Part shown: positions 3,049 to 64,000 of the stretch, piece after piece
How positions within the stretch are numbered: the stretch's first letter is position 1
Layout of the letters: each line of letters opens with the position of its first letter
From: Peronospora farinosa
Lineage: Eukaryota; Oomycota; Peronosporomycetes; Peronosporales; Peronosporaceae
Assembly: GCA_947646735.1 (NCBI GenBank)
Contig: CANTFK010000017.1
Location: forward strand, 248,001 to 312,000
Direction: 5' to 3'
DNA: 64,000 nt
Program-made: the position numbers and the translations under genes
Notes under the pieces: generated by a model
The model's input: the letters and a program-made list of their open reading frames with translations, nothing else
What the model was told of the DNA's origin: nothing
Databases searched by the model: none

Positions 3049-3445
3049 TCAAGTCAGTCAATTGTACACATGCAGAAGCAAAGCAGGGTGATGATGCCGT
3101 CAAGGAAGCCCACGTTGTTCGCCAAGTGCGTGTATAAAGGCCAGTTCTACTTCAGTCCACCCTACTAAACTTGCTTGACTTAGCTAGCACCTTAGCAAGT
3201 CAGCATCGAAGAGTTGCTCATACTGCAGGAGGAGGCTACTTTTTGTTGGTAGCGCATATTTAATTCCAAACATCATTGCGCACATCCAGACACTTGATAA
3301 TACGTTGTGTCTCTCCAGCCTTCACCGACGTCGTCAGAACATCTAAATGGCAGCGTTGAATACCAAAGTTTCATTACTTCTTGCATCTCACATACAGCAC
3401 TACACAAAGTCATTAAATTGGCGGCATCGTGATTCATTCACAAGC
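3049..3445. other. Convergent intergenic region
   Basis: About 400 bp between the converging DEP and transporter genes. Only 3' untranslated sequence is expected. I see no gene or repeat in it. Confidence 0.5.
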
Positions 3446-35199: not shown

Positions 35200-37257
35200 A
35201 TGTCGCACTGGGCGATAGCAGCGCTCCAGACGCTGACGAGTTTGCTTGCAATCATTGGAAAAGTAGTCGCGACGACGAATCATATCGCCTCGATCGATGA
35301 AGACATTCAGCTGAGTGAAGTTTATGGAGGTTCCTATGGTGATGCATTCTCTGATATGCCTTTCATTAAACTTGGCCAAACTCTGAATGCAATTACACTC
35401 CGTGGTGGCGAACGACTTATCTCCATTACGACACAAGTAGCGACACCGGCTCATGCAACGTGGAATCACGGTGGTTCGGATGGGGTAGAGGCTGTTCTCC
35501 TCCTAGATACTAACGAGTATGTCGACAAGATGGAAATTCATTGGGCCAAACGAAAAAAACATTTCCGTGTCTTCTTCGTCAACATTAGTTCAAGTGCGGG
35601 AAACCATGTCTGGGCTGGAACAAAAACGTCAAAGAGCACTACGGTGACTGCTCCTAAAGGGTTTCAGCTTAGTGGATTCTTTGGCCGCTCGGCAGGTGAG
35701 GTCGATCAACTCGGTGTTATCTGGACGAGAAGATCAGCCAAGACAGCACACCTTACAGATAGAATGGGTACTGAATGGTATGGCAAGAGAATTCGTAACT
35801 GGGTGGGGCCCACCCTTGGCTCTTCCACTGACTCGGCATGCTACCGGCAGACAAAGTCTTTTGGCAGCAATCGCATTTGTCCGGCAGGCTACAATGGGAA
35901 TGATGAGGCCTGCATTGCTCAATGTCCGTTAGCGTATCCCGTTTCGTGCTATCTGGAGTGCATTCCCCAGAATGATGACTGTGGCCTTGAAATTGTGCAG
36001 AAGGTTTCGGCTTTGCTTTCCGCTGTTATCAATGTGGCGACGGCCGGCATCTTTGGCGCTGTCATTTCGATATACAAAGATGTGAAGCGAGAATTCTTGT
36101 GCGCGGCAAATATTGTTGGCGTGATCAAATCTCTTCTCTTCTTCCTTAGGTTTCAACAGACGACAGCGCCCCAAGGAAATGTTGAAGAACTACTTGCTGT
36201 CGCGCTCCAAGCTGATGTTCTAGTCGTCGACTTACCTGTCGCAGTAAGCCATTGCCTTGGCCTCCCTGTGTCATCAGACTTTATATTTTCTGGTATTGTG
36301 ATGATGGTCGTGGAAGCTATTGCCAGGGTAGCCATTACTGAAGGAGATCAAGTGTTGGAGTACGGATCCAATATTTATCGCCTTATACACAATGTTACCG
36401 CGGTCAACACCACCCACACGAGCGTGGACGAACTACAGGATTTCTTGGATTCCGGCTCGACTTGCGGGTACCAGCTCAAGCGGCTCACGGATCATATCAT
36501 CCTCTCGGTCAATAAAGTTCGTGATGAGAATCCTAAAGCCACGACCAGCGATGTTCGAGTTAACATCAGCAGGTCTTCACTAGTTCTCAATGATATTCCA
36601 ACAGCAACCAACAATTGTATGAACGAGATGCTCGCCTACAAAACTCCAGTTGCCGCGTTTAAAACTCGCGACTTGCTGCGTAAGACGTTCGGCGTAATTG
36701 TGGATCAGCTAGTCCAGTCGGCCACAACTGACATGGGAGCTTTCGTAGCGGAGAGTGAGTTTGGGCTTGAGACCCTAAATTTGGCTCTCGCGTCATTGTC
36801 TGGGCTAGATCCGACACGATTTGTCTGGCTGGCATCCCAATTCGTTCAGCCGGTTTGTGGACCTACTGCTTTCATCGGTGAGATCGACGATGGATTGCTG
36901 CACGACGCGCTGGGCTTAAAAACTATTGACGAAGCGTTTGTTGGAAGTTATGGTGTGTGGTACAAAAAGGGTGACGGCGTTGTGATGCTTACTTTCACCA
37001 GCATCGATACAAAGGACGTGGAGGTAGTAATTCGCTCAGGTGGCAGCCCCATTGCGAACGTTCTAGTGGCTGCAGGCACGACGGTGATTTGGAATTCTAC
37101 TGTTACGAAGCTGCACGAGAAACCGTTGTATTTAGACCGGTGGCGACCAAATTTTGTTGGCATTCCGGCGTTGGGCGGTGGATCATTAAAGTTGTGGGTT
37201 CCAAGTTCATCTGAGGGAGGCCGTTTAATGATGCATGTGCGAATAAATGTTAGTTAG
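35200..37257 (+). CDS. Secreted jacalin-like lectin protein (copy 2)
   Basis: An intronless gene of 685 residues, collinear with copy 1 over its whole length and perhaps 55-60% identical by eye. It has an N-terminal hydrophobic signal segment (LTSLLAIIGKVVA), a jacalin domain at about 35-175 (DEDIQLSEVYGGSYGDAFSD to FFGRSAGEVDQLGVIW), the same cysteine-rich block (CPAGYNGNDEACIAQCPL), the same helices (AANIVGVIKSLLFFL) and the same end MHVRINVS. The most conserved stretch is the C-terminal QFVQPVCGPTAFIGEIDDG region, suggesting it is functional rather than a linker. Its divergent layout with copy 1 points to duplication with inversion. Confidence 0.85.
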   Translation: MSHWAIAALQTLTSLLAIIGKVVATTNHIASIDEDIQLSEVYGGSYGDAFSDMPFIKLGQTLNAITLRGGERLISITTQVATPAHATWNHGGSDGVEAVLLLDTNEYVDKMEIHWAKRKKHFRVFFVNISSSAGNHVWAGTKTSKSTTVTAPKGFQLSGFFGRSAGEVDQLGVIWTRRSAKTAHLTDRMGTEWYGKRIRNWVGPTLGSSTDSACYRQTKSFGSNRICPAGYNGNDEACIAQCPLAYPVSCYLECIPQNDDCGLEIVQKVSALLSAVINVATAGIFGAVISIYKDVKREFLCAANIVGVIKSLLFFLRFQQTTAPQGNVEELLAVALQADVLVVDLPVAVSHCLGLPVSSDFIFSGIVMMVVEAIARVAITEGDQVLEYGSNIYRLIHNVTAVNTTHTSVDELQDFLDSGSTCGYQLKRLTDHIILSVNKVRDENPKATTSDVRVNISRSSLVLNDIPTATNNCMNEMLAYKTPVAAFKTRDLLRKTFGVIVDQLVQSATTDMGAFVAESEFGLETLNLALASLSGLDPTRFVWLASQFVQPVCGPTAFIGEIDDGLLHDALGLKTIDEAFVGSYGVWYKKGDGVVMLTFTSIDTKDVEVVIRSGGSPIANVLVAAGTTVIWNSTVTKLHEKPLYLDRWRPNFVGIPALGGGSLKLWVPSSSEGGRLMMHVRINVS

Positions 37258-47370: not shown

Positions 47371-47474
47371 GTGCTGAAGTCAGCACCTGCTTAAGATGGG
47401 TCGGGAAATGTGGGAGCGCAGTAGGGGCGGGATGCCCTACGGTCGCGGACTCTGAAGCTACCCCTAAGTTCAGA

Positions 47475-49494
47475 GTGATCGAACAAATGGGTAGCATATT
47501 TTCTGAGGTTCCGAAAGGTCGGATCTCAACCCTTTTGGTCTATAGCGCTCGAGTACGAGGCTATGACCAAGTGATGACTCTTCTCGTGGAGTCGGGTGCA
47601 TCACAAAACTTTGTGAAACTCGCGGCTCTGAAAAAGAGACCGGCGAGTTATGAGTCGCTTTGCCAGTATGGCAAGCGAGAAGAGGCGATCGCTCGTTTAG
47701 CGAACGGCGCGCTCATTAAATCGGAGGGAGTTCAAGCTGAGCTCGCCTTCAGCTTTAGTGACTTCTTTTGTAAAGAGAAGTTCTCAGTGATAGGTATGGA
47801 GAGTCCGTATGATCTCATCCGAGGCATGCCTTGGTTGGCTATACACCAACCATGGATAGATTGGAGTACACGTACAGTCACTAACTCTACGCAAGACACC
47901 GTAAAGGATGTGCTCCTGAGAGAGGCCTATGCGATTAATGCTGTGTCCAACACAGTCGAGGGTGCGATGACGGTATGTCAATCGACACCAGGAATTACCC
48001 AGATCGAAAGGATTAGTGTAGTTGGAAGTGCCCTGGCAGAAAGCCAGGCGACACATATTCCTATCCAGGTCGAAAAGACTGGTGTAGTGAATGGGGCGAT
48101 GACAGGTAGTCATGCGTCCAATAGTCCTGCACATAGACGAGAGCCTGTGGCAGTTGATGGTGGGCTGACAGGAAGTCAAGCGCCACAAGAACCAGAACAG
48201 AGCCATGAGCCTGGTGCGGTTGGAAGGAGTGCGCTGGCTAATACGGCAACGACACCTTCTTCCAGGTCAAAGGTCGTGGTGACTCGGAACAACGAGCACC
48301 AGACGTATAAAGATGATCAAGGTCACGTCGAAGCGAGAGACCCTTGGATCAGTCTCCGTCCAAGAGTACGGACCTACGAACGAGTTGTTCGAGGCCGCCG
48401 AAGACCGAATGTCGGAGGCATCCTAAGTTGAGGTGGTCCAACTTGTCTTGGCATCTGTCGAGGAGATAGTAAATCTCTCGGAGATGACGTGGGATCTGTT
48501 TCTGTCCGAACTAAAGGAAGGAAAGATCCACGAGATAGTCGCGCCAGTTCCAGAAAAGAATGTGGTGGACTATTGCTCGTCGTCCACAGCGGATAAAAGC
48601 GTCTTGGAGACCGACAAAAAGAAACGGTTCGCTGCTCAAGTCTGGTAAGCCTTGAAGGAAAGCCCGTTCTATGATGTTCTGTGGAAACACCGTGATGTGT
48701 TTCCAGCAGAAGTTCTGAGCCGCCTACCGGCCGATAGGGGCATCAGGAACGAGATTGATCTGGAGCCTGGCACCAAGTATTGTGTGACCAGGCAATGAAC
48801 GCTGCCGAAGGAACAAGTAGATTACATCGATGAGTTCTTCTACAAACGAGCCAAGTCGGGACGTGTACGTGAGAGCAAGTCGCCTCACTACAGCCCGACC
48901 TTCTATGTGCGTAAAGCAACGGGTGGATGGCGCGTGGTTCATGCTTATAACAAGCTGAACACGGCCACCATTCCGGCTCAAACGACGATCTCTCGGAAAG
49001 ATATCTTGTTGAACTCCATGGGAAAGTCAACTATCTTTTCCGCGTTGGATCTGAAGGATGGCTACTATCAATCTCTTATGAGAGATACTGATGTAGCCAA
49101 AACGACAGTAAGCACCCCAAGCGGTATTCTGTGGGAGTGGCTTGTGATGCCACAAGGGTTGAAAAATGCTCCAACAACATTCAACCGAGTGGTGGCTCAC
49201 GTGATGCTTCAGCACCGCGCCTACGCGCCCCATTACTTTGACGATGTATTCGTGCATAGTAGGGCGGAGGACGGTCTGAGAGCAATAGAGTCGCACAAGC
49301 GTCATTTGGAAGCTGTGTTGCAGACACTGGGTGACGCCCAATTGTACTTTAACTTGCAAAAGTACGTAGCAGATGTCCCCGAGATACCTGTACTGGGCTG
49401 CATCGTAGGTACACATGGTGTACGAGCATACCCAGAAAAGGTAAAGGCTATCAAGGAATGTCTAGTCCCTCGACATGTGAAGGTGCCTCTCTAG
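47475..49494 (+). pseudogene. Ty3/gypsy protease-reverse transcriptase, degraded and truncated
   Basis: Retropepsin-like region first: LLVESGASQNFV, where the catalytic DSG is ESG, then YDLIRGMPWLAIHQPWIDW. A low-complexity linker made of repeated VxGxxTGSQA-like units follows. The frame shifts near 48,430 and has in-frame stops at 48646 (TAA) and 48796 (TGA). Reverse transcriptase then runs from IDLEPGTKYCVTRQ through WRVVHAYNKLN, FSALDLKDGYYQ and LVMPQGLKNAP to the active site YFDDVFVHS. Homology ends right after PRHVK, where RNase H should begin. It is non-functional. Confidence 0.88.
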
Positions 49495-49498
49495 ATAA

Positions 49499-50527
49499 CC
49501 GGTGCAAACGATAGCATGCACCGGACGTGTATCGTTTCTCAAACTTATTGTGGCAGCAGCATAAAGTCTTTGAAACCAAGCCTTTTTCAAACGATTAAAA
49601 AGTTTGTGACAAACGCGTTCCACGATTGGAGAAACGCGTTTGCCTCACGCTTCTTGTGTGGACCATACCATCGATGTTCAAGAAACACATCGATGTAATA
49701 GTCGTTCTCAGTGCGAAAGTTCTTCGCACTGGCTTCAAGGCCGTAAAGCTTTGACGCATCAAACAACGATATGGGGAACCGTTCGTTGGAATTTCCAGAA
49801 CAACGATCAAGCAGATGCTATAATAGCATCAAGGGCTTGCGATCAGGAGCAAGACGCAATACGTTGCGGTCTAAAGCCTCCTGCGTGGTGTCAAGTACCG
49901 ACACCACGTGCATTGATGTCAGTAGAAGCACTGACATCACCCTTACCGCCCCAATCGAGTCACTATCCCTCGACTCGTTTAGTGAGTCGTCTAATTAGTC
50001 AAACGACCCGAACGTTTCACGGTACATTCATTCACTCAATGTACCACGGACCCTCTTCGTAAGATTCGACGACGAGGTATCACCCCGAAGAAGCCCGGGA
50101 GTGGCACAGTTGGCTTTGAGTCGGATGCGTCATCCGACTCACCAGAGTAGTCAACGACTGACTCTGGGTCAACATCTTCACGTGGCGCTTCGCCACGTGA
50201 ACCTGCAACAGCCGTTGCAGGCTGATGTTGACTTCCAGCAGACACATTAGTGTCTGCTGGCGAGGCTGTGAAGCCTCAGTAGCGGCTGCACACAGGCGTG
50301 CAGCCGAGTTCTTGGCTGCCTTGGCAGCGACGCAAAATGACTTGGTCATAGCGTGAAAATTGTTGGAGTAAAAGAAAACCCAACAAGTGCTCCTTTTCCA
50401 TAGTAACTAAACAGTCACTAATGAGGCTGTTGGTTGAGGGGGGGGGGGTAACGGGGTGAGTCCGTTACATAACATTGACACTTATATGAAGTGTCAATAA
50501 AAATATTATTATAACTAATAATATTTT
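49499..50527. repeat. Zone packed with short perfect inverted repeats
   Basis: At least 13 perfect stems of 8-11 bp occur in about 1 kb. Left/right arm positions: 49499-49506/49517-49524; 49709-49717/49723-49731; 49814-49821/49823-49830; 49884-49892/49900-49908; 49915-49923/49930-49938; 50021-50028/50038-50045; 50118-50127/50131-50140; 50177-50187/50191-50201; 50202-50209/50214-50221; 50235-50245/50250-50260; 50283-50291/50298-50306; 50474-50483/50489-50498; 50500-50510/50517-50527. A 9-bp outer stem (50168-50176/50224-50232) encloses two of them. Shorter stems lie at 50062-50067-type spacings between. Confidence 0.9.
49560..50349 (-). pseudogene. Degraded retroelement gag-like reading frame
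   Basis: On the minus strand an ATG at 50349 starts an Ala-rich frame (MTKSFCVAAKAAKNSAARL). The next frame continues with SAGSQHQPATAVAGS and an acidic block, then FFGVIPRRRILRR. Further left, after more breaks, an aromatic frame (DYYIDVFLEHRWYGPHKKRE) is readable. It resembles the N-terminal part of a retroelement gag but carries no zinc knuckle or other firm motif. Frameshifts and stops make it inactive. The stretch overlaps the hairpin zone. Confidence 0.4.
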
Positions 50528-51485
50528 GACAATATTACCTTTTCTTATAATATCGTCTCTAAATCTCGTTGAAGTTGGAGATGCCCTCTAATTGATATAT
50601 GGGCCATCATATCAACCAACGCGCTGACCAGTGACCGACGGACACGCGCAATGAGTGGAGGGCAAGTTGTCAACATACATAGTTGTAGTTAATATAGTTA
50701 ACATAAGTTATAATAATTAGTTTTATTAGATAGTTAAATTTATTGAATACGTTTTCTTTTTCGTATCAACTCAGCGTTTGTTTACATGATTTATTTCTTC
50801 TGCTCACGTGTACGTGAAGTGATTGAGGCTTCTTCTTCACTGTCATCAGTGAAGGTAGACTATACTGTTATCAGTATAGTCGGAGGTTGCTTCATAAAGT
50901 AGCCTATTAATGAGCTTAGGCACGTTATGAAAAGGGCCTGACGCGATGGACCGTGCCATAGTCCATTAATAAACGTAGGCACCTTAATGAGCTCTTTTAT
51001 CGGGCCCACAGTAATGAACGCCGACAGCGAATGCATCTCCTGCTTTTACTCTTGCAGAGATCGTTTCGCCTGGTGTGCTCCATAAGTAGCACACCTGACG
51101 TAGCACTTCATTTTTAAATGGATGGTACATGGCGCGAATATTTGTCTTAAAGATCGCCCAGGATGAAGCGCATCGGCGTTTGCCATAAGCGCAGCGTAAG
51201 CCCGCACTAACGCTTTGCCACGCAAATTTGACATGGCATACGACAACATCCTAGTATCGTCTTCGATGAGCTGCGCCATACCGCATTGCTTCACATTGCT
51301 TCACTACTAAAAGACAACGGAAAATCGTATGTGGGGCAATCCCATCAAACCTCGGAGGGTCCAAATGGGCCTCGCATCATAAGATGGGCAGAGAGCGTCT
51401 CAACACTTCTGTTGAGCGTTGGTCCTAGCTCGATCATGCAAAAGCTCATTCTAAGTCTTACTAAAGAACTCAGCCATAGTTTGGC
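50350..51485. other. Retroelement-derived sequence with gag fragment
   Basis: Contains a poly-G run (50439-50448), GTAACGG/CCGTTAC arms (50448-50454/50462-50468), A+T-rich sequence, two further strong hairpins (CTTCACTG/CAGTGAAG 50835-50842/50847-50854; a 10-bp stem 50858-50867/50872-50881) and a minus-strand fragment at 51046-51294 reading TRMLSYAMSNLRGKALV, a gag-like peptide common in oomycete gypsy elements. No intact gene. Confidence 0.5.
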
Positions 51486-51811
51486 TGTAATGGGCCACAA
51501 TGCATTTGCAACACAAACAGAAATAAACAATTACATCTGTGGCATGTTGTGACCGAAAGCGTGGCTTATTTTTTTTGCTTTATTATTGGAGCCTAAAGAC
51601 CCAATATGGAATAATGATAAATTAACCTGAAAATGTGTGGTTCCTGAAAGGCGGGAACACGGTCGTATGTATTACGACTTAATTATCTCTTCGTAATTAG
51701 AAATCAAAATAATGAAATCGTACTTAAAAATACTTGATACGTAATACTTGGGCTTGAGTCTTCCTCAAGCGCGCGTGTAAGCTAGTGACGGTACGTTTTA
51801 TCCACGTTACA
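51486..51811 (+). mobile_element. LTR, family B copy 1 (5' LTR)
   Basis: Begins TGTAATGGGC, ends CACGTTACA, 326 bp. It aligns along its length with 61524-61865 and with the inverted copy at 54257-54857. A degenerate primer-binding region and gag follow at once, so it is the 5' LTR of a plus-strand element. The preceding five bases are TTGGC. Confidence 0.85.
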
Positions 51812-51837
51812 ATTAGTATCACTTAGTAACTCTTCCC

Positions 51838-53755
51838 TTGCACGAGTTTGTAATTAGCAAATTGTCGTACTTTGTTGCTCCAGATTTATTTCTAGAGCAC
51901 GCGACATTCACCCATCTCACTGATGTTGAGTGGGATGCCATTTATCCCCATGTAGCGATATCGGGAAAGGCATTTGTCACGTCGCTGATGATATCAGCGA
52001 CTTCTGACGTGCAACATCTCGCCATACACGACTTCATTCCCGCAAGCTCGCCGAATCCAATCGGCGACGTTTAGCTCTCTCGCGACCTATACGTAATGAT
52101 GCCGTGAAGATTGAAACCTCCTTCTAATCAGGAGAAGGTAAAGATCGATTGTCGCTGAATCGATGGTTCCGAGAAGTTGATATCGCCATCGCCTCAAGAC
52201 TTCTCAAGGCGAACCAGGCGAAGGTTAGCTTCCTCATTTTCCATCTTACCGGGAAAGCCAAGGAATGGTGTAACGGACTAAGGACCCGTTACCGTCTTAC
52301 ACTAAAAGGGCGTTGAGGAAGCGCTCCTAATTAACTCGTAAATATAACTCTGTTTTATTTTTGTTTTAGTTTTAATTCGCAGTAAGTGCGAATATATTCC
52401 CTAGCTCATACATGCATTTCATTAGGTGCCAATTCTTGTGCCGAAATTTCGCCATAGTGGGAACCACTCAATATGCAAGGCAATTTATCATTGGCTAATT
52501 ATTAAGTCTGGCACCCCGATAATAAACAAATAATAAAAAATGACGCACAGTATCCGCTAATCGGATACTGCCCTATGCCTACTTATGTAATTATGTATTA
52601 TCCCTATAACTCCTTATGTAATAGGTTGCCCTATACAAATGGGCCTTTTTCGTTGTGGACGAGCACGCGTTTCCCACCCTGGATGCCATCCAGGAAGATC
52701 TTCGTCTTGCCTTCGAGCCACCGCAAGAGGAGACATTAATGCGCTTCAGATTCCTGTCTATGCGACAGGGCAAATGGCGATGCGCGACTACGTGCATATG
52801 GCTAGGCATCTGGAGTCGTGTATTATCACGCACTCCATGGACATATACACGCAGGTGAATGTCTTGGGGATGGTATGCGTGAAGGGAAGACCCGCGTATA
52901 TCTCGAGCGCGCAAATCCTGCCACATTGGAGGAGGCATTTGCCATTGCCTTCCGTAAGTCCTCAAGGGACACCAAAGCCTACGCCAATCCCTTAATTGTT
53001 ACCCTTTTCCGGACTTTTGGTCCGGAATCTATGGAGATCGACGTCATATGATCGACTACGTGTCACTTCTCATAGATTGACGCTCACACCGGGTGTCAAA
53101 TGGTATTCTTACGATGTCGAAAGCTAGGGCATCGCGAGGCACTCAGCCAGAGCCGATATTGGCGCATGTAGTGGACGTCCATCATGAAGGCGCTGTACCG
53201 GCCGCACGCGTAAAAATCGGTCGGGACCAGTATATGCAGGGCACCCTACTGGTTGGAATGAGGATCCGATTCCTGGTGGCAGCTCAACCTTTCATCCCAC
53301 TTGCGCTGATCACACCTTTAAATGCCGTCACTTTAAGTGTTGATTTACATTTTATTATTGTAAGCTCACATGTCGCCGATGTTCAGCGACCTCTATGAGC
53401 GCCCCTGGACTCAGGAGCGACGATGATTTCTTTAGTAAATTTTGTTTATCCATGCTACCTCCCAGCATCTAGGTCCGCAATGGACCTGGCAAAGTCGTTG
53501 TCAAGTTGGCTGATGGGAAACCACATCGCGTGTCGCAACGCGTAATGTCGTTGCCATATACGTTTAACGGGTTTTGCAGTAATGATTATTTCTTGATGAT
53601 CACGACGAATTATTTGCATTCGATCGCACCCAGATCGACTGGCTAGCCAGATCAGTGAGACGTCGACGCAAGTTTGACGTCAGTGAGTGTTTTACCATCT
53701 CTTGTCGTTTACAAGTGACATAATTAATGTCACAGTCGTGGATTGTGTCTCCACG
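51838..53755 (+). pseudogene. Family B gag-protease, degraded, with nested solo LTR
   Basis: Reads as a diverged copy of the gag at 61892: HEFVISKLSYFVAPDLFLEHATF at the start, [20 protein letters not shown] after the first break, then past the nested LTR the segments around [13 protein letters not shown] and TLEEAFAIAFRKSS. Protease remnants lie near 53,340-53,640. Many stops and frameshifts are present. It ends abruptly at 53755 in the spacer after protease, exactly where the inverted half at 59934 begins. Confidence 0.8.
52270..52637. mobile_element. Solo LTR (third family) with 5-b target duplication
   Basis: A 368 bp block starting TGTAACGGAC and ending CCTATACA interrupts the degraded gag. 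It is flanked by AATGG on both sides (52265-52269 and 52638-52642). Removing it and one AATGG restores the alignment to the uninterrupted gag around 62,310. No internal element sequence is present, so it is a solo LTR left by recombination. Confidence 0.9.
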
Positions 53756-54256
53756 AGACATACGCACCACGCACGAAATGCTGCAAAAGCTTCTGCGTGA
53801 CGTCGGTGCCTTCTTGTTAAAGAAGTTCGTTGCACTCTCGCTTAAGCGAGAGACAACTGGTGGTACGACTGCTTAAGCAGTCGACCAACCGCATGACCAC
53901 CCTCGCACACGAAGGTAAGACGGTTACCCGATTCCTCACGCTTCTTGAAGGTGTGTGCTAGTAGCACGTGGCAGGCTTTTAAAAGTGCCCGTCTACACTT
54001 GGTAGCACTAGTATTCCTTCCCACGACCCGCCTTTCTAAACGTGCGTATGAGTGAGAATAGACCTCAATATGGATTGGGCCCAATTCCCTCTCTCCCAAC
54101 ATTATAGGGAGTTGAATGAGCATTTGGCTTTAATTTGGTTGAACAAGCCCTGGTCAGCCTCTTGGGTTGTCCTCCTGAGCAGCATGTTGCTCCGTCAGAG
54201 CAATTGAGGCGTTTGTGCTTGGACAGCGCAAAAATGCGTCCGAGGCAAACAGGCAA
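53756..54256. repeat. Repeat X, right copy (at inversion junction)
   Basis: AGACA plus a diverged copy of 47200-47370, extending further right. The minus strand has broken frames (NRLTFVCEGGHAVGRLLKQS). Its left end abuts family B protease sequence, whereas in the left copy it abuts LTR A. Confidence 0.7.
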
Positions 54257-54857
54257 TGTAATGGAGTATAGCGACCGTTACTAGCTTACACGCGCGCTTG
54301 AGGAAGACTCAAGCCCAAGTTTTAGGTTTTCGTAACGGTGTTACTAGCTCTAGAGAGGAAGTCGTTGGCGCTGTCATAAAAGGATTCTGACATTGTTTGT
54401 TGTGTTTTTCTGCTACTATGATGAACTAGCTGTTCTTGTTTTCCATCACTCCTGTCCAATTAATCATCCATCCACGCTCTTGGCCACTCAATTTCCCATC
54501 TATCGATCACGTTCGAACTATCGCTGAACTAATCGCCCTACACCTTGCGAAGTCGCCAGCCGTTACTCTAACCATTACGCATATATGCCTATTTCTACCA
54601 AAGGTATTTAGTAACTTTAACTCTGATTGATATTTTTGTTTTATTTTGTACTAATTATGAAGAGAGAATTATGTCGCATTGCATACGACCGTGTTCCCGC
54701 CTTTCAGGAACCACTCATTCTCAGGTTAATTTATCATTAGTCCATATTGGGTCTTTAAGCTCCAATAATAAACTATTAATAATATGCCACGCTGTCGGGC
54801 ACAGCACGCCTACAAATTTAACCGTTTATTTCAGTTTGTGTTATATGTACCATTACA
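54257..54857 (-). mobile_element. LTR, family B copy 2 (3' LTR of a minus-strand element)
   Basis: In minus orientation it begins TGTAATGGTAC at 54857 and ends CTCCATTACA at 54257. It aligns to the other B LTRs but carries about 260 bp of extra sequence at roughly 54330-54603. A purine-rich AAAGAAGGGGTGA tract directly upstream (54858-54870 complement) is a polypurine tract, marking this as a 3' LTR. The five bases after it (minus strand) are TTGCC. Confidence 0.85.
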
Positions 54858-54937
54858 TCACCCCTTCTTTAAAAAGCACTCACCAGCCTTGAGTGCTCAA
54901 CAATCAAAACTCCAACGCTCACAACCGAATCAAGTAA

Positions 54938-56203
54938 TGGCCGAACAAACGACTCCCAATACTGCAGTACTCTCAAACACCATTCGAGGGAGTGCAACCA
55001 TCCACTTGTTGGACCAACAACTCATTGCTAGCGCACTGTATGACTTTTCTGGAGCTCGCGCTTCTAACTCACAGGAAACGATGCAGGATTACTTCCGATG
55101 TTTTGCGAATTGACGCGGAAAGAGTCTTGAAGGCATCGCATACGAAACTCTGCAACGTTTCTGATGCGCCTTCATCCAACGTTGGAATCGGATTCTCGAG
55201 GATGAGCGCAGTGGCTCGCCAATCATGAGGATCTTCGCGCCGATCACTGCATCGGCGCGCTACGCGAAGTTGTTCGAATAGCCATGACGAAGACCGACTC
55301 TGCTTCGTGCACGTCAACAAGGATGTTGCTCTTGCGACTTGATGCCACGCTTAACTTGTAAAGAATGACAGCGACACATTGCTGAGTGCCCACTCAGCGA
55401 ACGAGCTTGGATAGTGACGTATGAGAGCATTCTGAGCAAAAGAAGGACTGCAGTTATTCGTGCTGCACCTCGCTGGCAACATTACTCGCGACAGCGGAGT
55501 CGATCTACGCTGAATGACCAGCCAGAGCAGCGACACGTTCGCCTGCTCGTCCTGCTACGAGGTTCTCGTTTCGTAATCTTGGTGACATATATGCACCACG
55601 ACGTTCTCGCTCACGTCATTTTTCTCGTTTTTGACGACGTGGCTCGTTTCACAGTTCTCGTTCATCACGAGAACTTTTACGCTCGCACTCGCATCGGAGT
55701 AGCGCGACTCCGTGGAATCGTATTACCGAACAAATTCTGGAACGTCACGAAGAAGCAAGGAATGCGGTTCCTACGTATCCTGTTGAGAACCCAAGCCAGC
55801 GTAAACGATATTTGCGCGCAGATGGAACCGCGCGCTTGCATAAACCGACTGTAGCACTGCTCGGGGAGGGTCCTCGTGACCTACAGTCCTATCCACAATA
55901 TAGCGTACCATTGCTTCCGCATCTACAAGCGGTGGTATCCCTCACGATGGTAATACTGGCTTCTTAGTTGCCCAGGGCGATGTTGGTCAGGCCGTAATCA
56001 AGGCTGACGATGCCCAGCTAAAAGCTGAGGCTGCCCTTAAACGTGCTGCACAGGCGGAAAGAGCTGCGAATGAGATCAAGCAGTCTAGCCTTGAACTTCT
56101 CGAACGGATGAGGGTTCTGGAACGCCATGTACTTGGTCATGTACAGACGATAACGCAATCGCGACCGATGTCATCGGCGTGTCGAGTACGACAAGAAGGC
56201 TGA
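54938..56203 (+). other. Unidentified broken coding sequence antisense to the pol element
   Basis: An ATG at 54938 opens MAEQTTPNTAVLSNTIRG. The frame then breaks several times. The last stretch (about 55930-56203) is an open Ala/Glu/Lys-rich coiled-coil frame (AQLKAEAALKRAAQAERAANE). I recognise no family. It lies between the integrase end and the 3' LTR of the minus-strand element, on the opposite strand, so it may be a gag-like fragment of an inserted element. It is also rich in hairpins (55006-55020, 55236-55259, 55381-55398, 55653-55675). Confidence 0.35.
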
Positions 56204-59200
56204 TCGATCCATGGACCCCTGGATCCGGCATCGGAGCCAAGACGTGAAGCTCAGCCGGGCGATATTCCTTTATCCGCCCGACGTAGAACGTGGGGTGGAG
56301 TTGCAACGAAGAAGTAACATCGAGTGTGTTAGCATCGCCGATTGCTTCAAAACCTTTAATGGACCGATAAAGCGTGGCGCGAGTTTACTCGCGCCCAGGT
56401 CAGTAACCGCTAAACTTCTAATTTCTTTGGTAGACAACAATACACGATATCCTTTTTAAAACTTGCTCATCTTCTTCCTGCCATGTTTATCAGTTTTTCA
56501 TTCGGCTTATCCACTGCAGACTGAAGTTTGTCGAGTACAAATCGGGTGATGGCTTGACGTTGGAGAATAAACTCCGACACAGCCATGTCATCAATTTGTC
56601 GCGCCGGCTAAATCGGCGCGCAGTTATAAGTAAATAAACTCTAAACCAAAGACGATCCAATCAATGTCTGCGCAGTCCATCGAGCTAATGGGTACGTCAC
56701 GTCATGTGGCGTCAAAGCAGCAGTCTTTACCTTGAATCGGGTTACTACATTTGCGCTCAAAATACTGTAAGGTGCACTCGATTGTTGTTCATCATCGTCA
56801 CCTCCTCCAGAGTGGTGCCAAGAGGTGCCGTGGGCTGCCCATGGCAAGAAGAGTTGAAACTCGAGGGTGTCGAGACGAATTACAAAAAATGGCGTTAACC
56901 CTGTTGACGCGTGTACGGCGTTGTTGAGTGCGAACTCAGCGAGTTGTAAAAATAAACTCCAACTTGTTAATGAAGTAACTTCGAAGAAGGTCTTCGAGGA
57001 CCCAGTTCACGCGTTCGGTTTTCCCATCCGTTTCCAAGTGGGACGCAGTCGACATCGGCAGTTTTGTCCCGAGGAGCTCGAAAAGTGATGTCCAAAATGC
57101 GGACGTAAATCGCGGATCACGGTCCGAAACAATGTTTTCTGGAAGGACATGATGACGGAACACCGCGTCGATGAAGTGCGCCGCGGTCTCTGCCGCGGTG
57201 ATCTTAGCGCGAACAGGAACTAAAGTTGTCATCCTGATAATTATGTCAACAAAGACCAAGATGCCCGTTCGAGCTTGGCTATCGGGCGCAAGCCCGAAGA
57301 TAAAGTCCATCGAAACTGATCTCCAGGCCTCTGCTGCAATTGGCAACGATCGCAAGGGAGCCTGTGACGATGGAGATGGCTTCACACGCTGGCATATTTC
57401 GCACGTTCGGATCCAGTTGCGTACCCACTTATACATGTGGGGCCAGAAGAAGTCTCGAGACACAGCCGCGAAAGTCTTTTCGCGGCCTAAATGGCCGCCA
57501 GCAGGAGCATCGTGATACTCGTGAATGATTCTTGCACGCAAATCCATTTCGTTGGCAATCACCGTGCGAGGAGAATCGAATTGGTCGATGCTATATAGAA
57601 GCAAATCGTCGTCTAAACTGTATTGATGAATATGATCGCGCTTGGTTAGGGAGTACCAAATCGCTGGGACGACGCAGATACTCGATACTGTCTGCATAGT
57701 CTGAATCTCTTTTGTACGCTGAGACGATCTCATCAAATAAACACAGCTCGGGTGTAACCCGAGTTAGATTCAGCGATACACACATTGCACATCGGTCATC
57801 ATCGTCCTCGTCATCAGTAGCCTGGCGACTCAGAGCAGTCCGAGGATCGTAGTCGGGGTATCGTGACAGATCGTCAGCGAGAATATTGGTCTTGCCTGGA
57901 ATTTTAATGCACGAAGAAGTTGTACTCAGAAAAGAATGAGAGCCATCGTGCCATCCGTTGGTACAGGTGTGGGTTCTTCATCGCTGTGCGTAGCGATACA
58001 TGATCGGTGTACAAAGAAAATATACGTTCACCAAGCAGATGCACGCCAAAACTTGATGAGTGCGTAGCGCATCGCTAACAACTCCTTGTCATAAACCGGA
58101 TAGATCCTCTCATCTGGCTTCATCTGTCGCGACTATTAGATCACGACTCGTACACGGCCCTCATCATCAAATTGCATAAGGGAACAACCGATTGCGAAAT
58201 TACTGGCGTCGCATACCACGTGGAATGGCTTAGAGTCGTCCGGTAGGACCAGCACCGGTGCTGACGCTAGGCCCTTCTTCACTGCATCGAAAGCCTCTTG
58301 ATGCTCGGCTCGCCACGACCACGTGGCGTATTTCTTTAAAAGTAACGACATAGGCTGTTATATAACCGGCGTAATCCTTTGTATACATGTAACTAGCCAA
58401 TCCGAACCACTGACGCAACTTTGTAGGAGTCTTTGGAGTAATCCAAAACCCGATTGACGACACCTTCTTTGCATAAGCTCAAACTCTCAATTTACTCACA
58501 TAAAAACCCAGCAACGAAGTCTCTGATGCACAAAAGACACACTTCTTGAGATTCACATAAAAAATTGTTGTCTCGCATGACTTGAAACACCTGTTACAAG
58601 TGTTAGAGGTGAGCTTGAAAATCACTGAGGCTGTCCTCAGCGCGACTGTGGACAAAGATTTCATCAAAGTACCTCAAAGCGAAATTCCGAAGCGGCCTCA
58701 CACCTGCGACACCATGATATTGATAGTTGCCGGGGCATTTTTCAATCATTTTGGCATCACCAGCCACTCCCATAACATGCCACTCGGGGTACTCACCACT
58801 GTGAGTGGTATGCCGCTCGGTCGCATCAAAATCTGATAAAAGCCATCGGTCAAGTCGATGGCACTGAAGATGACACTTCCTGACATGGAATTCAGCACCA
58901 TGTCCTTCCTGGAGGTAGACGTTTACGCAGGAATAGTGGCATCATTTAACTTATTGAACGCATGCACTATCCGCCAGCCTCCCGTAGCCTTCTTCACGCA
59001 GTAGGTTGGACTCGAATGGGGTGAGATGCTCTCACGCACATGACCCGTCTTGCGGCGGCCTTAGAAGAATGCGTCAATAGCTTCGACTTGATCTCGAGGC
59101 AACGGCCACTGCCGTGTCACACAATACCTCGAGCCTGGCACGAGATCAATCTCGTGCCGAACACCGCGGTCCGCAAAAAGTTCAGCCGGAATCTTGTCTG

Positions 59201-59934
59201 GGGACACGTCTGCATACTCACGACCAATGTGGTGGTCAGAGTTACTAGACTCGCACAGAGCCTCACACGATTGCGATGCAAATACTTCTTCTCGCCGCTG
59301 ACGTTGGATCAGCGCTTCGAGGACACGTTACATGCTCCTCGTTCGTCACGGTAACCACCTCATAGTAATCAGACACACTTGTTCCACAGTGCTTTCCAAA
59401 AGGTCACGTAGGAAGTGCTTCCAGGAAAGCCCTGGAAGGCTTGTAATTGAAGACTCGTACTCGCGACTTCAATGTATTGGCGCCTTTGTGGACTCCCTTT
59501 CGCGTACAAGATATCGTGGACACATTTTAACGCTGACTTCTCAATGCTGTTGTCCCCATCGTGCTTCAAGTCACTTCTCGAAGCTGGCCAACCGCATCCA
59601 GGTGATTAACCATCATTCCCCTCTAAGCACTGAATTTACCCATCCATAACGCCGAAAACACAGGACAAGAGTAGCAAATACTCGACCGTCGACACTTAGT
59701 GCGGGATCTCTGCTCAACCACATTTGTACAGATGGGGCCTCGGTACATGCCACTGCATTCACGTGCGGTAACTCCCTTTTCAACCGCGTTAATGTCGCCC
59801 AGAAACCCCTGTTTGACCGCGTCGTCCTCTTTGTTCTTCTCGCTGTGAAGCGAGGAGTTACTGTCACTTGTGTCTTAAAGGACAGCGAAAGCAGTACAGA
59901 GAGGGCCGACGCTCGCTCTTTGCACCAACTGCGT
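56085..59934 (-). pseudogene. Family B pol (RT-RNase H-integrase), inverted half
   Basis: On the minus strand, from the right: a degraded copy of the post-protease spacer (59,600-59,934, matching 63,500-63,760), reverse transcriptase with many stops (KKATGGWRIVHAFNKLN; active site RYFDEIFVHS, where YxDD has become YFDE), RNase H (HVVCDASNFAIGCSLMQ) and integrase (56936-57736). The integrase keeps its HHCC finger and catalytic D, D and E (SMDFIFG, VSDRDPRF, DGKTERVN). A LHPTFYVGRIKEYRP segment follows (56085-56306), the usual link to a chromodomain. It is inactive because of stops and frameshifts. Confidence 0.88.
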
Positions 59935-60276
59935 AAGCAAATTCAAGACTGAGCTTTATTTAATGAATTGTAATCAAATATAAACTTAACTACTGATTGG
60001 CTATATATATATACAGATTGGATACGCGACTCTTTAGAAGCGTATCCTGACGCATGAGCTTAAATCTAGATTGAAGCTTGCGACTGACGTCCTTCTAAGA
60101 CGTCGCGATGCCTAGCTTCAACTAGCGCCATTCCTTCCCATTTGAATTCATCAATGGATATCACATTCACGAGGGTGGATCACGTTTGTGTATCTCACCC
60201 AAGTGACAGGTCAAAAGCATTCATGCATACTTTTAGACCAAACATTAAGTATATTAATAAACGTTTGCATGTAACT
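59935..60276. mobile_element. LTR, family A (right copy, inverted)
   Basis: The reverse complement of 46893-47196 over 59935-60238; weaker similarity runs on to about 60276. Its last five bases (AGACA in LTR orientation) are missing here and lie instead at 53756-53760, at the other inversion junction. Confidence 0.8.
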
Positions 60277-60394
60277 AGATGCCCTGTTATACCATCCCCG
60301 TTTTAGAACGATTTTTACATTTTGTATAACATCGCCTAGGAGACAGAGAGACTGCGAGTCGTTATAAACGCGCTGATTAGTCTATTCAATTCTC

Positions 60395-61307
60395 ATGCCA
60401 CCGAAACGTGGTAAGGCTGATGGTTCGTCTGCAAAGGCACCCATGCAGTCCAGCACTAAGCGCACGCGCCGCGATTTATCGCAGTCGTCGCAAAGTGCTT
60501 TAGGCAATGAGGCGAATCTTCCATCTCACTATAATGTGGATGAAGATCCATCTTTCATTGTAGACTGCAATGAGAGTACGCCATTGTCATCACCCCAAAG
60601 TGGAGATGAGCAAATCGCGTTGATAGGACATATGTCCCCATCATTTGTGGCACCCGTCCTTGAGGGAGCGTCGATGCTTCCTGCAAGTGAAGGTAAAGCC
60701 TCGTCGCCTGCGCCTACGAGCGCAGCGACTAAGACTAAACGCGCTGCTTCAAAAGAAGTAGTCGCGACTCAATCATATGTGACTCCTCATGCTGATGTCT
60801 TGACAATCCATGATGGAGAATCAGACTCAAGCGAGTGTGAGCTTAAAGCTCCACCAAGTAAACCTTTGGCCTCACTATCCCTCCGTCGCGTGGACGGCTA
60901 CGTGAGTGGTGGCTTGCCACCAATGCCTCCTCCATCTGAGTGGATGAACTCGGATGGGTGGGCTTTTGCAGCGTGCAACTATAGACGCTCATAAGTTTTA
61001 TAGCGTCTTTCCCTTGTGGAAAAAGCAGGGCAAAGCACTTGGTCGTGCTTTCCCGATTCCAGTCGTTCTGCCTTCTAATGAAACAGCCGACGAATATGAA
61101 GCAGAACTTCGGCGCCGTGTTACCTTGCATGTAGATGCAACGAAACAACGGTCGCAGCGAGTCAGCTTCGCCATGAAGCGTGCGCATGAAATTTTGGGTG
61201 GTAAGCGACCCCCAATTAATTCTCGCCACGCTTCTTCTGCTAGTCCATCCGGACCTAGCAGAAAGACGACAGCTTGTGCTGCTTCACATAAGCAGCCACC
61301 AGCCTAG
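60395..61307 (+). pseudogene. Retroelement-associated ORF with one frameshift, unknown family
   Basis: An ATG at 60395 opens 199 residues that are Ser/Pro/Ala-rich and basic at the N-terminus (MPPKRGKADGSSAKAP). One base appears lost near 60,965; the next frame continues HKFYSVFPLWKKQGKALGRAFPIPV, a charged helical stretch, and a Ser/Lys-rich end to 61307. It could be the gag of another element. Hairpins lie in the tail, for example 61282-61300. Its 3' end overlaps the antisense chromodomain frame. Confidence 0.45.
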
Positions 61308-61523
61308 GCACGTAGACGCGCAAAGCGTCCACAGGCTCCCACGAGTCAAAACTCGTTGGGTAACCCTTCCATTGGACAAGGATTTGGAGCTTTCGCTTCA
61401 CAAACCGGTGGGCCAACAGCCTTCCAACAAGGAAGCGCGTATTCCCTTCCGTGTCCACCAACACAGGTGGCGCCCGATAGGAGTGGCGATTACGCCCACT
61501 TACTCGCGGCTGCCTACCCTGCT
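61255..61523 (-). pseudogene. Chromodomain end of a gypsy integrase, cut by LTR B
   Basis: The minus strand reads VLVDTEGNTRFLVGRLLAHR, then LQILVQWKGYPTSFDSWEPV, the chromodomain of chromoviral Ty3/gypsy integrases, ending at a stop at 61255. Its upstream part is cut by the LTR that starts at 61524, so LTR B inserted into an older minus-strand element. Confidence 0.8.
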
Positions 61524-61865
61524 TGTAATGGGCTACATTACACATATAGCATTAACACAAATAAACAATTACATATGTAGGCAGGTGCTGGGCCCGAATA
61601 GCGGGCACAGCGTGATAATTTATTATTGGTTTATTATTGGGCCTAAAGTCCCCAATATGGACCAATGATAAATCAACCTGAAATTGTGTGGTTCCCGAAA
61701 GGCGGGAACACTGTCGTATTTATTACGACTAAAATCTTCATAATTAGTACGAATTAAAACTAAAATAAAAATCAGAGTTAAATTTACTTAATACCTAATA
61801 CTTGGGCTTGAGTCTTCCTCAAGCGCACGTGTAAGCTAGTGACGGTACGTTCTAGCCCCGTTACA
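61524..61865 (+). mobile_element. LTR, family B copy 3 (5' LTR)
   Basis: 342 bp, from TGTAATGGGC to CCCGTTACA, with 5-bp inverted ends (TGTAA/TTACA). Internal stems include GTTCCCG/CGGGAAC (61691-61697/61703-61709) and GCTTGAG/CTCAAGC (61806-61812/61818-61824). Confidence 0.9.
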
Positions 61866-61867
61866 CC

Positions 61868-61885
61868 TGGTAGCACTTAGTAGTC
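61868..61885 (+). other. Probable primer-binding site
   Basis: TGGTAGCACTTAG starts two bases after the LTR, as expected for a site pairing with a tRNA 3' end (...CCA). The tRNA is not identified. Confidence 0.6.
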
Positions 61886-61891
61886 CTTCCT

Positions 61892-62941
61892 ATGCACGAG
61901 TTTGGGATGAGCGAATCGTCGTACTTTGACGCTCCAGATTTATTTCTGGAGCACGCGATCTTCCCCCATCTTACTGGTGTTGAGTGGGATGCCCTTAATC
62001 GCCTCGCGGCGATATCGGGAGAGGCATTCGTCGCGTCGCTGATGAGATCAGCGACCCCTGACGCGCAACGTCTCGCCATACATGAGTTTATGGCACGCGA
62101 GCTCGCCGAATCCAACCGGCGAGGCTTAACTCCCTCGCGCCCTTCACGTAATGAGGCCGTGAAGATGTAAACCTCCTCCTACTCTGGAGAAGGTAAGGAC
62201 CGGTTATCGCTGAACCGGTGGTTCCGAAAAGTTGATATCGCCATCGCCTCGAGACTTCTTGAGGCTCCACAGGCGAAGGTCAACTTTCTTCTTTCCCGCC
62301 TCACCGGGAAGGCCAAGGAGTGGGCCCTTGGTAAACTCGTTGTGGACGAGCACGCATTTCCCACCTTGGATACCATCCAGGACGATCTCCGTCTTGCCTT
62401 CGAGCCACCACAAGAGGAGAAACTGGTGCGATCAAGATTCCTGTCGATGCGATAGGGTAAAATGGCGATGCGCGACTACGTACAGATGGCTAGGCATCTG
62501 GCGTCGTGTATTATCACGCACCCCATGGACATGTACACACAGGTGAATGTCTTTGTGGATGGTATGCGTGAGGGGCAGACCCGCTTATCGCTGGAGCGCG
62601 CCGAGCCTGCCACATTGGAGGAGGCATTTGCCATCGCACTCCGTGAAGACTTTAGGGTCACAAAGGCCTATGCCAAACCCTCGGTCGTCAGCGTTCCCCG
62701 GCCTTCTGGCCCAGAACCTATGGAGATCGACGTTATTGAGTCGTCGGGTGACCGGCGACGTGTCTTTCATCATAAAGGTGACGCTCGCACCGGGCGTCCA
62801 ATGGTTTGCTTTCGTTGTCTCAAGCCAGGACATCGCGCGGCAGAGTGCCGTGCGCCAGCCCCATTATCGGTGCAAGTAGTGGACGCCCATCATGAGGGTG
62901 CTGTACCGGCCGCACGTCCAAAAAACGGTCGGGACCAGTAG
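61892..62941 (+). pseudogene. Family B gag, near-intact with two nonsense codons
   Basis: A 349-codon gag frame starting MHEFGMSESSYFDAPDLF. A capsid-like helical region follows ([28 protein letters not shown], then DYVQMARHLASCI). The nucleocapsid zinc knuckle is CFRCLKPGHRAAEC (C-x2-C-x4-H-x4-C, near 62806-62850). Only two internal stops break it, TAA at 62168 and TAG at 62453; the rest is in one frame. It ends at TAG 62939 just after a frameshift signal. It packages element RNA in cytoplasmic particles in intact relatives. Confidence 0.85.
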
Positions 62942-62961
62942 GTGCAGGGCGCCCTACTGGT
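62920..62961 (+). promoter_or_regulatory. Programmed -1 ribosomal frameshift signal (gag to pro-pol)
   Basis: The slippery heptamer A AAA AAC (62920-62926) lies in the gag frame (codons CCA AAA AAC). After a 7-nt spacer comes a 9-bp perfect stem, ACCAGTAGG (62934-62942) with CCTACTGGT (62953-62961). The gag stop lies in the stem. A -1 slip moves exactly into the protease frame, which stays open to the window edge. Confidence 0.75.
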
Positions 62962-64000
62962 TGGAACGGAGGTCCGGGTCCCCCGGTGGCAGCCCAACCT
63001 TCCAGTCCTCCTGCGCTACGCGCACGGTTAAATGCCACCACTACGAGTGGTGATTCACGTCTGATTATTGTCAGTTTACATGTCGCCGGCGTCCGGCGAC
63101 CTCTGCGAGCACTCCTGGACTCAGGAGCAACAAACAATTTCTTTCGTGAATCTTGTTTGTCGATGCTGCCTCCCAGCATTCAGGTCCGTGAGGGACCTGG
63201 CCAAGTCGTCGTCAAGTTGGCTGACGGGAAACCACACCGCGTATCGCGGCGCGAAGTGTCGTTGCCGTATACGTTTGATGGCTTTCGCAGTAATGATGAT
63301 TTCTTGGTGATCGCGATGAATTATGCATTCGATTGCATACTGGGCATGCCATGGTTGGCACGTTATAAGCCCCAGATCGACTGGTTAGCCAGATCAGTGA
63401 GACGTCGACGCAAGTTCGATGTCAGTGAAGTGTTTACCCATCTCTTGGTATCTCCAAGTGACTGGCCAAACGTCACAGTCGTGGATCGCGATTCCACGAC
63501 GTTGGCGGTGCACAGAGCGAGCGATGGCCCTCTCTGCACTGCTTGTGCTGTTCTTCGGGACACAAGTGACAGTGACTCCTCGCTACAGAGCGAAGAGGAC
63601 GACGAGGACGACGCGGTCGAACAGGGGTTCCCGCGCGTCATTAATGCGGTTGAACAGGGGTTCCCGCACGTGGATGCAGTGGTTGAACCGGGGTTCCCAT
63701 CTGCACCTATTGTGGTCGAGCAGGGGCTCCCACAAGGGCATTGTGGCGACGAGCAAGAGCTCGCCAGCGAGTGTGACGCGGACGGACAGGAGTCCTCACG
63801 CGAGAGCATGATGGTCAAACCGGGGTTCCCATCATCACCCACTGTGGTCGAACCGAGGTTCCCACATGGGCATATTGTGGTCGAGCAGGGGCTCCCACAC
63901 GAGTACAACGTGGACGGACAGGAGTCCCCACGCGAGAGCATGATGGTCGAACCGGGGTTCCCATCATCACCCACTGTGGTCGAACCGAGGTTCCCACATG
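62926..64000 (+). CDS. Family B protease-pol, open to window edge
   Basis: In the -1 frame relative to gag, open for 1075 bases. Retropepsin region: SLHVAGVRRPLRALLDSGAT with the intact catalytic D-S-G, then ILGMPWL and the QIDWLARSVRRRRKFD end. An acidic stretch (SLQSEEDDEDD) and a run of 11-residue repeats follow. RT, RNase H and integrase would lie past the window. There is no ATG near the start, as expected for frameshift expression. The lack of stops, against the heavily decayed copies at 53 and 57 kb, suggests a younger insertion, although gag carries two stops. Confidence 0.82.
63616..64000 (+). repeat. 33-bp tandem repeats coding VEQGFP-type units
   Basis: Units of 33 bases encode 11 residues beginning V-E-(Q/P)-(G/R)-(F/L)-P. 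Four such units, including one that reads DGQESPRESMM, form a higher-order unit of about 132 bases, with a second round starting before the window edge. Partial units survive on the minus strand at about 59,740-59,830. Confidence 0.85.

Follow-up and report, generated by a model that had tools for sequence, protein, structure and literature searches.

Perfect hairpins along a chromodomain Ty3/gypsy retrotransposon family of Peronospora farinosa: selection or self-templated copying?

The case for structure spread over whole replicating RNA genomes comes mainly from animal RNA viruses. A stretch of about 1 kb in the genome of the oomycete Peronospora farinosa, at positions 49499-50527 of the 64,000-nucleotide segment analysed here (the window; GenBank assembly GCA_947646735.1, contig CANTFK010000017.1, positions 248,001 to 312,000), raises the question of whether a transposon can have a comparable property, and of what would make and keep it. 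An earlier note, made from the sequence of the window, had described this stretch as gypsy-type retroelement DNA composed almost entirely of consecutive perfect hairpins. Our analyses find such a property in a retrotransposon family, far above the level given by composition or codon use. The family has hundreds of candidate copies, many of them broken, which provide a built-in neutral control and make the choice between selection and a copying artefact directly testable. If the hairpins are a shield, they would be a novel means by which a transposon coexists with RNA silencing; if they result from a drive in copying, they would represent a reverse transcriptase rewriting its own genome. In a literature search, with subscription journals outside its scope, no title or abstract opening among those listed described hairpin-packed LTR retrotransposons or an oomycete equivalent.

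The 3' end of a gypsy family and its hairpins

A direct count, allowing loops of 1-15 nt, gives 19 perfect stems of at least 7 bp and 15 of at least 8 bp in 49499-50527, where the earlier note had claimed at least 13 hairpins. In 1000 dinucleotide-preserving shuffles the means are 0.84 and 0.21 and the maxima 6 and 3 respectively; the counts are therefore far above controls, and the note's arithmetic estimate of roughly 0.2 chance stems per kb proves to have been accurate. It had allowed that the gene island at 1-46000 might be equally dense in hairpins, but the island is at chance level (9 stems of at least 8 bp against 9.2 expected; 60 shuffles), while the remaining transposon-rich DNA of the window, 50528-64000, is enriched, but more weakly (25 stems against 2.6 expected). 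The view that composition is not the cause agrees both with the dinucleotide shuffles and with the G+C content of the stems, which is approximately 0.52 against a background of 0.51, and an A/T or G+C effect is ruled out on the same two grounds. When 49499-50498 is folded as RNA and set against 20 shuffles per strand, z is -15.0 for the + strand and -19.9 for the - strand, compared to z = +1.4 for a single gene-island kilobase. A search of Rfam with 49000-51000 produced nothing above threshold, its one match (E 0.9) lying below the gathering cut-off.

The stretch belongs to a family, named A here, with hundreds of candidate copies in the source assembly that was searched (46.9 Mb, 274 contigs). 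Using the stretch as query, 532 candidates were obtained, of which 40 were scored and yielded 40 near-full-length matches of 84-100% identity, the window copy included, together with 9 short ones; LTR queries gave 657 and 631 candidates, with 40 scored from each. The copy set comprised 20 copies with 4-kb flanks, to which 2 more 3' ends and 11 LTRs were later added. All 20 fetched copies align from approximately 49484 to approximately 50890 and all continue further 5', hence the window copy (49484..50899, + strand, 17 perfect stems of at least 8 bp) is a 5'-truncated 3' end. Upstream, copy L013 has an open reading frame (ORF) with the Pfam domains RVT_1, RT_RNaseH, Integrase_H2C2 and rve in that order, representing reverse transcriptase (RT), RNase H and integrase, and at 2614-3846 it has SH3_Tf2-1 and Chromo (E 3.2e-14), a chromodomain C-terminal to the integrase. 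The gag side, at L017:2391-3515:-, carries Retrotrans_gag (5.8e-13), Ty3_capsid (1.7e-7) and a weak zinc knuckle (zf-CCHC, 0.0015) that is below cut-off. The LTR measures about 0.45 kb and has TG...CA ends, reading TGTAAC...ATTACA in most of 36 aligned LTRs.

Judged by these domains and alignments, the feature is the 3' terminus of a family of chromodomain Ty3/gypsy elements (chromoviruses), and the earlier assignment to gypsy retroelement DNA of an oomycete is borne out. The 1-kb limits given to the feature are not, since it extends over 49484-50899 and belongs to a much larger element, several times its length, that is hairpin-rich throughout. A separate foldback or MITE-like insert within a gypsy copy was rejected, because other copies run upstream through chromodomain, integrase and RT. 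Family A is like other chromodomain Ty3/gypsy elements in its gag with zinc knuckle, RT, RNase H, integrase, chromodomain and LTRs, and differs from them by its hairpin packing and by a long conserved antisense ORF overlapping the chromodomain ORF. The named proteins most closely related to those of family A come from Peronospora effusa, P. farinosa and P. matthiolae; a pol query found no relatives in IMG/VR.

In the window copy, the 3' internal region between chromodomain ORF and LTR (49484..50446, + strand) has 13 stems of at least 8 bp, and its counterpart in L013 carries the start and middle of the conserved antisense (- strand) ORF. The 3' LTR (50447..50899, + strand), delimited by the alignment of 36 LTRs in which it is included, has 4 such stems, is the only LTR of this copy and is preceded by a poly-G purine tract; both of its ends are mutated, where most other copies have TGTAACGG...CCCATTACA. 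Hairpins of the internal region, given without strand, are found at 49499..49524 (8-bp stem, loop of 10 nt), 49610..49642 (10 bp, loop 13), 49669..49695 (9 bp, loop 9), 49709..49731 (9 bp, loop 5), 49814..49830 (8 bp, loop 1; perfect over 8 bp in the window copy only, 1 of 21 aligned), 49884..49908 (9 bp, loop 7), 49914..49939 (10 bp, loop 6), 50021..50045 (8 bp, loop 9) and 50117..50141 (11 bp, loop 3). The 9-bp stem 50168-50176/50224-50232, described in the earlier note as enclosing two hairpins, is readable in the sequence and present also in the predicted fold (50168..50232); it surrounds the hairpins at 50177..50201 (11 bp, loop CTT) and 50202..50221 (8 bp, loop 4), beyond which lie those at 50235..50260 (11 bp, loop ATTA) and 50283..50306 (9 bp, loop 6). 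Two hairpins of the LTR are located at 50474..50498 (10 bp, loop ATATG) and 50500..50527 (12-bp stem of A and T only, loop 4).

At 49483/49484 there is an abrupt junction, where the RT of another gypsy family, B (47454-49483), is succeeded by the 3' end of family A with little microhomology at the joint. Because family B was not found again in 50900-53800, beyond the family A piece, the junction looks like a chimera or a deletion and not a simple insertion. In L017 (reverse complement 5447-9065), a second family A copy seemingly starts right where the LTR of another ends, an arrangement like that of a tandem in which both copies use a single LTR.

Hairpins along family A and in other families

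In L013, the density of stems of at least 8 bp rises from 9.3 per kb in pol through 14.0 (chromodomain part) and 15.5 (3' region) to 16.3 (LTR). The corresponding ranges over 20 copies are 1.1-10.4, 3.1-14.0, 9.3-16.5 and 6.1-16.3, where the two lowest pol densities belong to L012 and L020, which are truncated there, and the value of 3.1 to the diverged L022. The gag side of L017 has 16.7 per kb, and gag, pol, antisense-ORF region and LTR of L013 and L017 are all within 9-17 per kb. Under a first-order Markov null, positions 1-5456 of L013 contain 69 stems of at least 8 bp against 1.07 expected (64-fold) and the gag side of L017 contains 38 against 0.52 (73-fold), with genes in the same test having 9 against 9.35. 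The 882-codon pol ORF has 26 stems, whereas 500 synonymous-codon shuffles average 0.88 and never exceed 6; such shuffling wipes out the stems, and so the excess does not come from amino-acid or codon content.

Stem length appears bounded. In 7.7 kb, two counts summed, stems of 7, 8, 9, 10, 11 and 12 bp number 19, 38, 34, 23, 9 and 3 respectively, and none is longer. Among stems that reach 8, 9, 10 and 11 bp, 36, 49, 66 and 75% stop at that length, 75% being the value for chance pairing; above 10-11 bp, where stems are few, extension is no more frequent than chance. The commonest loop length is 4 nt, and hairpins with stems of at least 7 bp make up 38-41% of the sequence. Even spacing of hairpins was rejected, their placement being random or slightly clustered, as was a tuning of stem length to G+C, and hence to stability, for which there is a weak correlation only (rho -0.22, p 0.03 for stems of at least 8 bp; p 0.12 for at least 7 bp).

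Opposite the chromodomain ORF, L013 has an antisense ORF of 588 aa (4939-3173, - strand), and the same arrangement is seen at the five places compared in the source genome (G000; C1, C13, C189, C206 and C258). Homologs in P. matthiolae have 38-53% identity, many over at least 90% of its length, and relatives there form clusters of 1335 and 524 members. Within family A, internal branches have a slight synonymous excess in the antisense frame (16 of 42 against 12.3 expected), and none where it overlaps the chromodomain ORF (4 of 21 against 6.2); hence the putative coding role draws on conservation across species. Retroviruses such as HTLV-1 have antisense genes (HBZ), which the family A frame resembles as a long minus-strand ORF near the 3' end. 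It differs from HBZ in that its predicted product has no Pfam family above cut-off and no sequence match to a solved structure in PDB.

Hairpin content varies widely among other elements of the genome. With family A DNA masked, 20 copia loci, chosen as the best among 151 matches, carry 58 stems in 73 kb (0.8 per kb), and gypsy B (L022) has 3 stems in 3.6 kb, 4.8 times chance. A third gypsy family, C, represented by one 2.5-kb stretch (L062) that is open through RT to integrase and has 62% amino-acid identity to A, contains 11 stems where 0.44 are expected, 25 times chance, falling to 0.79 after synonymous-codon shuffling. Third codon positions of A and C are 33% identical. The part of A aligned to C holds 23 A hairpins, of which a single one shares its centre with a C hairpin (0.05 expected) and 8 overlap a C hairpin (4.8 expected, sd 1.6). 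Most hairpins thus lie elsewhere in C, and it is hairpin content rather than any particular hairpin that persists. The two gypsy families share the property, but the majority of their hairpins have turned over, and tolerant sites tend to some extent to be reused. The excess is weaker in the flanks of L024 and L025, to which no family is given (13 and 18 times chance), and in old copies within the window (8-9 times chance), and could there reflect decay of once-perfect stems.

Substitutions in the copying lineage and in dead copies

Substitutions were placed on polarised trees built from 14 copies (pol), 21 copies (3' region) and 36 LTRs, all from one family in one genome, with branches adjacent to the root excluded. 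The first 560 aligned residues of L009 are unrelated DNA and the source of 17 false compensated pairs; they were masked in the singleton, covariation, pol and joint 3' region and LTR tree, double-change and antisense-frame counts. The 3' region tree count is unmasked for L009 but begins past the unrelated stretch. The pol tree is without L009, L012, L014, L018, L019, L020 and the window copy, all of which except L009 are incomplete or out of place in that part.

In the pol tree, 10 of 94 substitutions on internal branches hit stems, where 30.3 are expected, compared to a mild depletion on terminal branches (173 of 701; 227.6 expected). The same difference is found in the 3' region (internal 7 of 46 against 20.5 expected, terminal 136 of 390 against 175.5) and in the LTR (internal 6 of 54 against 21.6, terminal 97 of 355 against 132.8), with Fisher p values for internal versus terminal branches of 0.0016 (pol), 0.007 (3' region) and 0.011 (LTR). 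On a joint tree of 3' region and LTR, 27 of 95 internal substitutions hit stems (40.6 expected). Stem avoidance is stronger on internal than on terminal branches, and therefore the force acts mainly in the copying lineage, the bias being weak or absent in dead copies. Internal changes that complete a stem are in excess in pol (16 against 7.3 expected) and are not enriched on the joint 3' region and LTR tree (7 against 7.9).

A matched test in pol and the chromodomain ORF held codon position, base and synonymy equal. Internal synonymous changes hit stems in 6 of 70 cases (23.0 expected), and 8 of 23 internal non-synonymous changes complete a hairpin (1.6 expected). On terminal branches, 37 of 445 non-synonymous changes are completing (34.8 expected) and 117 are in stems (138.9 expected); terminal synonymous changes favour completion too (28 against 16.5). 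Among 1296 singleton variants, stem completion is as expected (104 against 99.4), and variants within stems are slightly too rare (416 against 465.9, about 3 sd; 416 against 458.9, P 0.02, in another test). We ascribe these mild biases on terminal branches and in singletons to changes made before insertion.

These counts bear on the proposal that the hairpins are an effect of the host, in that near-palindromes are converted, once inserted, when transposon-rich DNA is replicated or repaired. In its favour, the whole of 46-64 kb is enriched in hairpins, loop inversions (described below) are carried by one or two copies each, and terminal synonymous changes favour completion; but singletons and terminal non-synonymous changes lack a completion bias, and the copia loci of the same genome are poor in stems. 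The proposal is thus largely contradicted, we give it hardly any credence, and post-insertion conversion as the main cause was rejected on the completion counts.

A tree-free test, with stems defined by the single copy L013 and circular shifts as the null, gave a similar depletion for variants present in at least 3 copies: 25 of 129 hit stems of at least 6 bp, where 46.0 are expected, and 0 of 2000 circular shifts were as low. Variants in exactly 2 copies have no stem depletion (54 against 56.5). With stems of at least 8 bp the effect is weaker (17 against 29.7, P 0.014, for at least 3 copies; 16 against 21.5, P 0.18, for at least 4). Covariation is weak overall, with 4 pairs in the whole element against 0-2 in slid controls, and 5 against 0-2 in the LTR. 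On balance we think it somewhat probable that selection, acting in the course of the element's own copying, preserves the hairpins and adds new ones.

Template switching, strand and candidate roles

Template switching happens at family A hairpins and may supply variants. Loop variation is seen at 149 hairpin positions in the element and 30 in the LTR, and four of these positions have loop alleles that are reverse complements of each other. Three have arms of approximately 10-11 bp: the loop at 50235..50260 is ATTA, and TAAT in L010 and L018; that at 50474..50498 is ATATG, and CATAT in L050; and that at 50177..50201 is CTT, and AAG in L020. The fourth pair, TATCT/AGATA, distinguishes two individual copies. 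In yeast, template switching between inverted-repeat arms yields loop inversions (PMC8604942), and those in L050, L010, L018 and L020 are spacer inversions of this origin. In L016 (3624-3700, at the LTR end) one arm of the terminal hairpin has been overwritten by the complement of the other arm, and the stem is longer than any in the 7.7 kb. Furthermore, a block exchange in two neighbouring LTR hairpins comprises four compensated pairs (three and one) on the branch to a newer subfamily, with L018 in an intermediate state; this branch touches the root in the LTR tree and is hence outside the LTR count. Family A shares with the yeast events the homogenisation of arms and the inversion of loops at perfect inverted repeats whose arms measure about 10 bp. 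In yeast the events are scattered in host genes, whereas family A has tens of hairpins per element and its stems are avoided by substitutions in the copying lineage.

A non-adaptive drive could produce hairpins by the same route, if the strand being made by reverse transcription folds onto itself, takes its own other arm as template and then goes back to the original one, so that each cycle makes quasi-palindromes perfect and purifying selection on proteins only limits where this is tolerated. Perfect Watson-Crick pairs without G-C or G-U preference and random spacing are what copying gives; loop inversions are a known product of template switching (PMC8604942), and the overwritten arm of L016 and the LTR block exchange with its L018 intermediate also speak for it. 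Residues in stems are also less conserved among homologs than others (0.57 against 0.68). However, compensated double changes number 0 on internal branches of the pol tree and 0 on internal non-root branches of the LTR tree, leaving the block exchange on the subfamily branch as the exception. About half of corrected stem mutations should become such pairs, and their absence outside the block exchange tends to speak against arm copying. It is the non-coding LTR, with about 15 stem hits too few on its internal branches, that carries this argument, because protein selection could hide pairs in coding DNA. Completing changes are nearly all single-base and fall on both arms alike, the arms are equally conserved (0.571 and 0.566), and directional overwriting of one arm was rejected for want of any difference between them. 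Pairing pressure also stops at 10-11 bp, yet fold-back can make longer arms, as in L016. We regard such a drive as the main rival, and as unlikely. The earlier note had listed repeated template switching among possible causes, and it is indeed seen at these hairpins, but from the substitution pattern we conclude that selection is the better account of their maintenance, and infer that selection, and not biased reverse transcription, is the cause.

The form of the stems gives some indication of the molecule on which selection would act. Mismatched pairs in L013, counted without L012, L018, L019, L020 and the window copy, comprise 10 G-U against 17 A-C, and in 7.7 kb there are 13 against 24; internal stem changes, summed over pol, LTR and 3' region with slightly different stem thresholds, comprise 9 G-U against 6 A-C. 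Both strands fold equally well, and in 49499-50498 the - strand folds at least as well as the +. Since stems have background G+C and no G-U excess and the strands fold equally, sense RNA alone is unlikely to be the target; selection for sense-RNA stability would favour G-C and G-U, and the absence of both counts against it. Either both transcript strands or DNA intermediates may matter, the conserved antisense ORF being a point in favour of a part for both transcripts. When A-C and pyrimidine-pyrimidine mismatches are pooled (38) and set against G-U and purine-purine mismatches (17) on the sense strand, the difference (p 0.006; p 0.10 for A-C against G-U alone) suggests that the minus strand matters, although the mismatch classes were pooled only once the data had been seen, and the lean does not recur among internal changes.

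The strand comparison also weighs on conventional cis-acting structure in sense RNA, serving packaging, dimerisation or export, which the earlier note had put forward. The predicted fold is deep (z -15) and retrotransposon RNAs do have signals of this kind; Ty1 RNA, for one, reportedly has kissing loops as a structural signal. Yet roles of this sort would call for localised sense-RNA signals, whereas the hairpins are everywhere, pol included, and mostly at different positions in family C, they have no sense G-U preference, the minus strand folds at least as well, and Rfam gave no match above threshold. Cis-acting signals are thus largely refuted and strike us as very improbable; of the note's selected RNA structure, selection is what we favour, and packaging, dimerisation and export are what we set aside.

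If selection maintains the hairpins, they would keep the single-stranded nucleic acid of the element self-folded. With stems about one helical turn long, sense and antisense transcripts would each fold up, and transcripts folded in this way would anneal less to one another or to small RNAs, while the stems are probably too short to feed Dicer; the predicted benefit is a shield from silencing. In Phytophthora, transposable elements are the main origin of 25-nt small RNAs, and per megabase the highest small-RNA output comes from inverted and tandem repeats (PMC3804510).

The nearest concept is the genome-scale ordered RNA structure (GORS) of RNA viruses (PMC3950689). Family A is like it in folding beyond composition-matched shuffles, in having structure across coding and non-coding sequence that exceeds composition and codon content, and in positions that are not fixed between families A and C; in viruses the property is tied to escape from host RNA sensing. 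Family A differs in being an oomycete LTR retrotransposon with perfect Watson-Crick stems bounded at 12 bp, which are found also in the LTR and opposite the antisense gene and have no G-U, G-C or sense-strand preference; the tolerance of G-U and better folding of the sense strand that would mark a structure of sense RNA were not observed. More tentatively, we raise the possibility, doubtful as it is in this full form, that family A carries a second, sequence-independent layer of information: strand-symmetric one-turn hairpins over gag, pol, the minus-strand gene and the LTR, renewed at new places as families diverge. Such hairpins would be selected on both strands or on minus-strand cDNA, and not on sense RNA, and would serve either to armour the element against RNA silencing or to protect its single-stranded cDNA.

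Other repeats are present in the window. Two copies of another element, at 51486-53756 and 61524-63499, are 78-81% identical and have a moderate hairpin excess, perhaps representing a decayed hairpin-rich family; an ORF with a sub-threshold zinc knuckle is located at 62462-62941, within the second of them. The gene island contains an inverted pair, 30621-32270 and 35613-37256, of 65-67% identity, which are probably paralogous genes, and the end of the window, 63615-64000, consists of tandem repeats of 72-85% identity.
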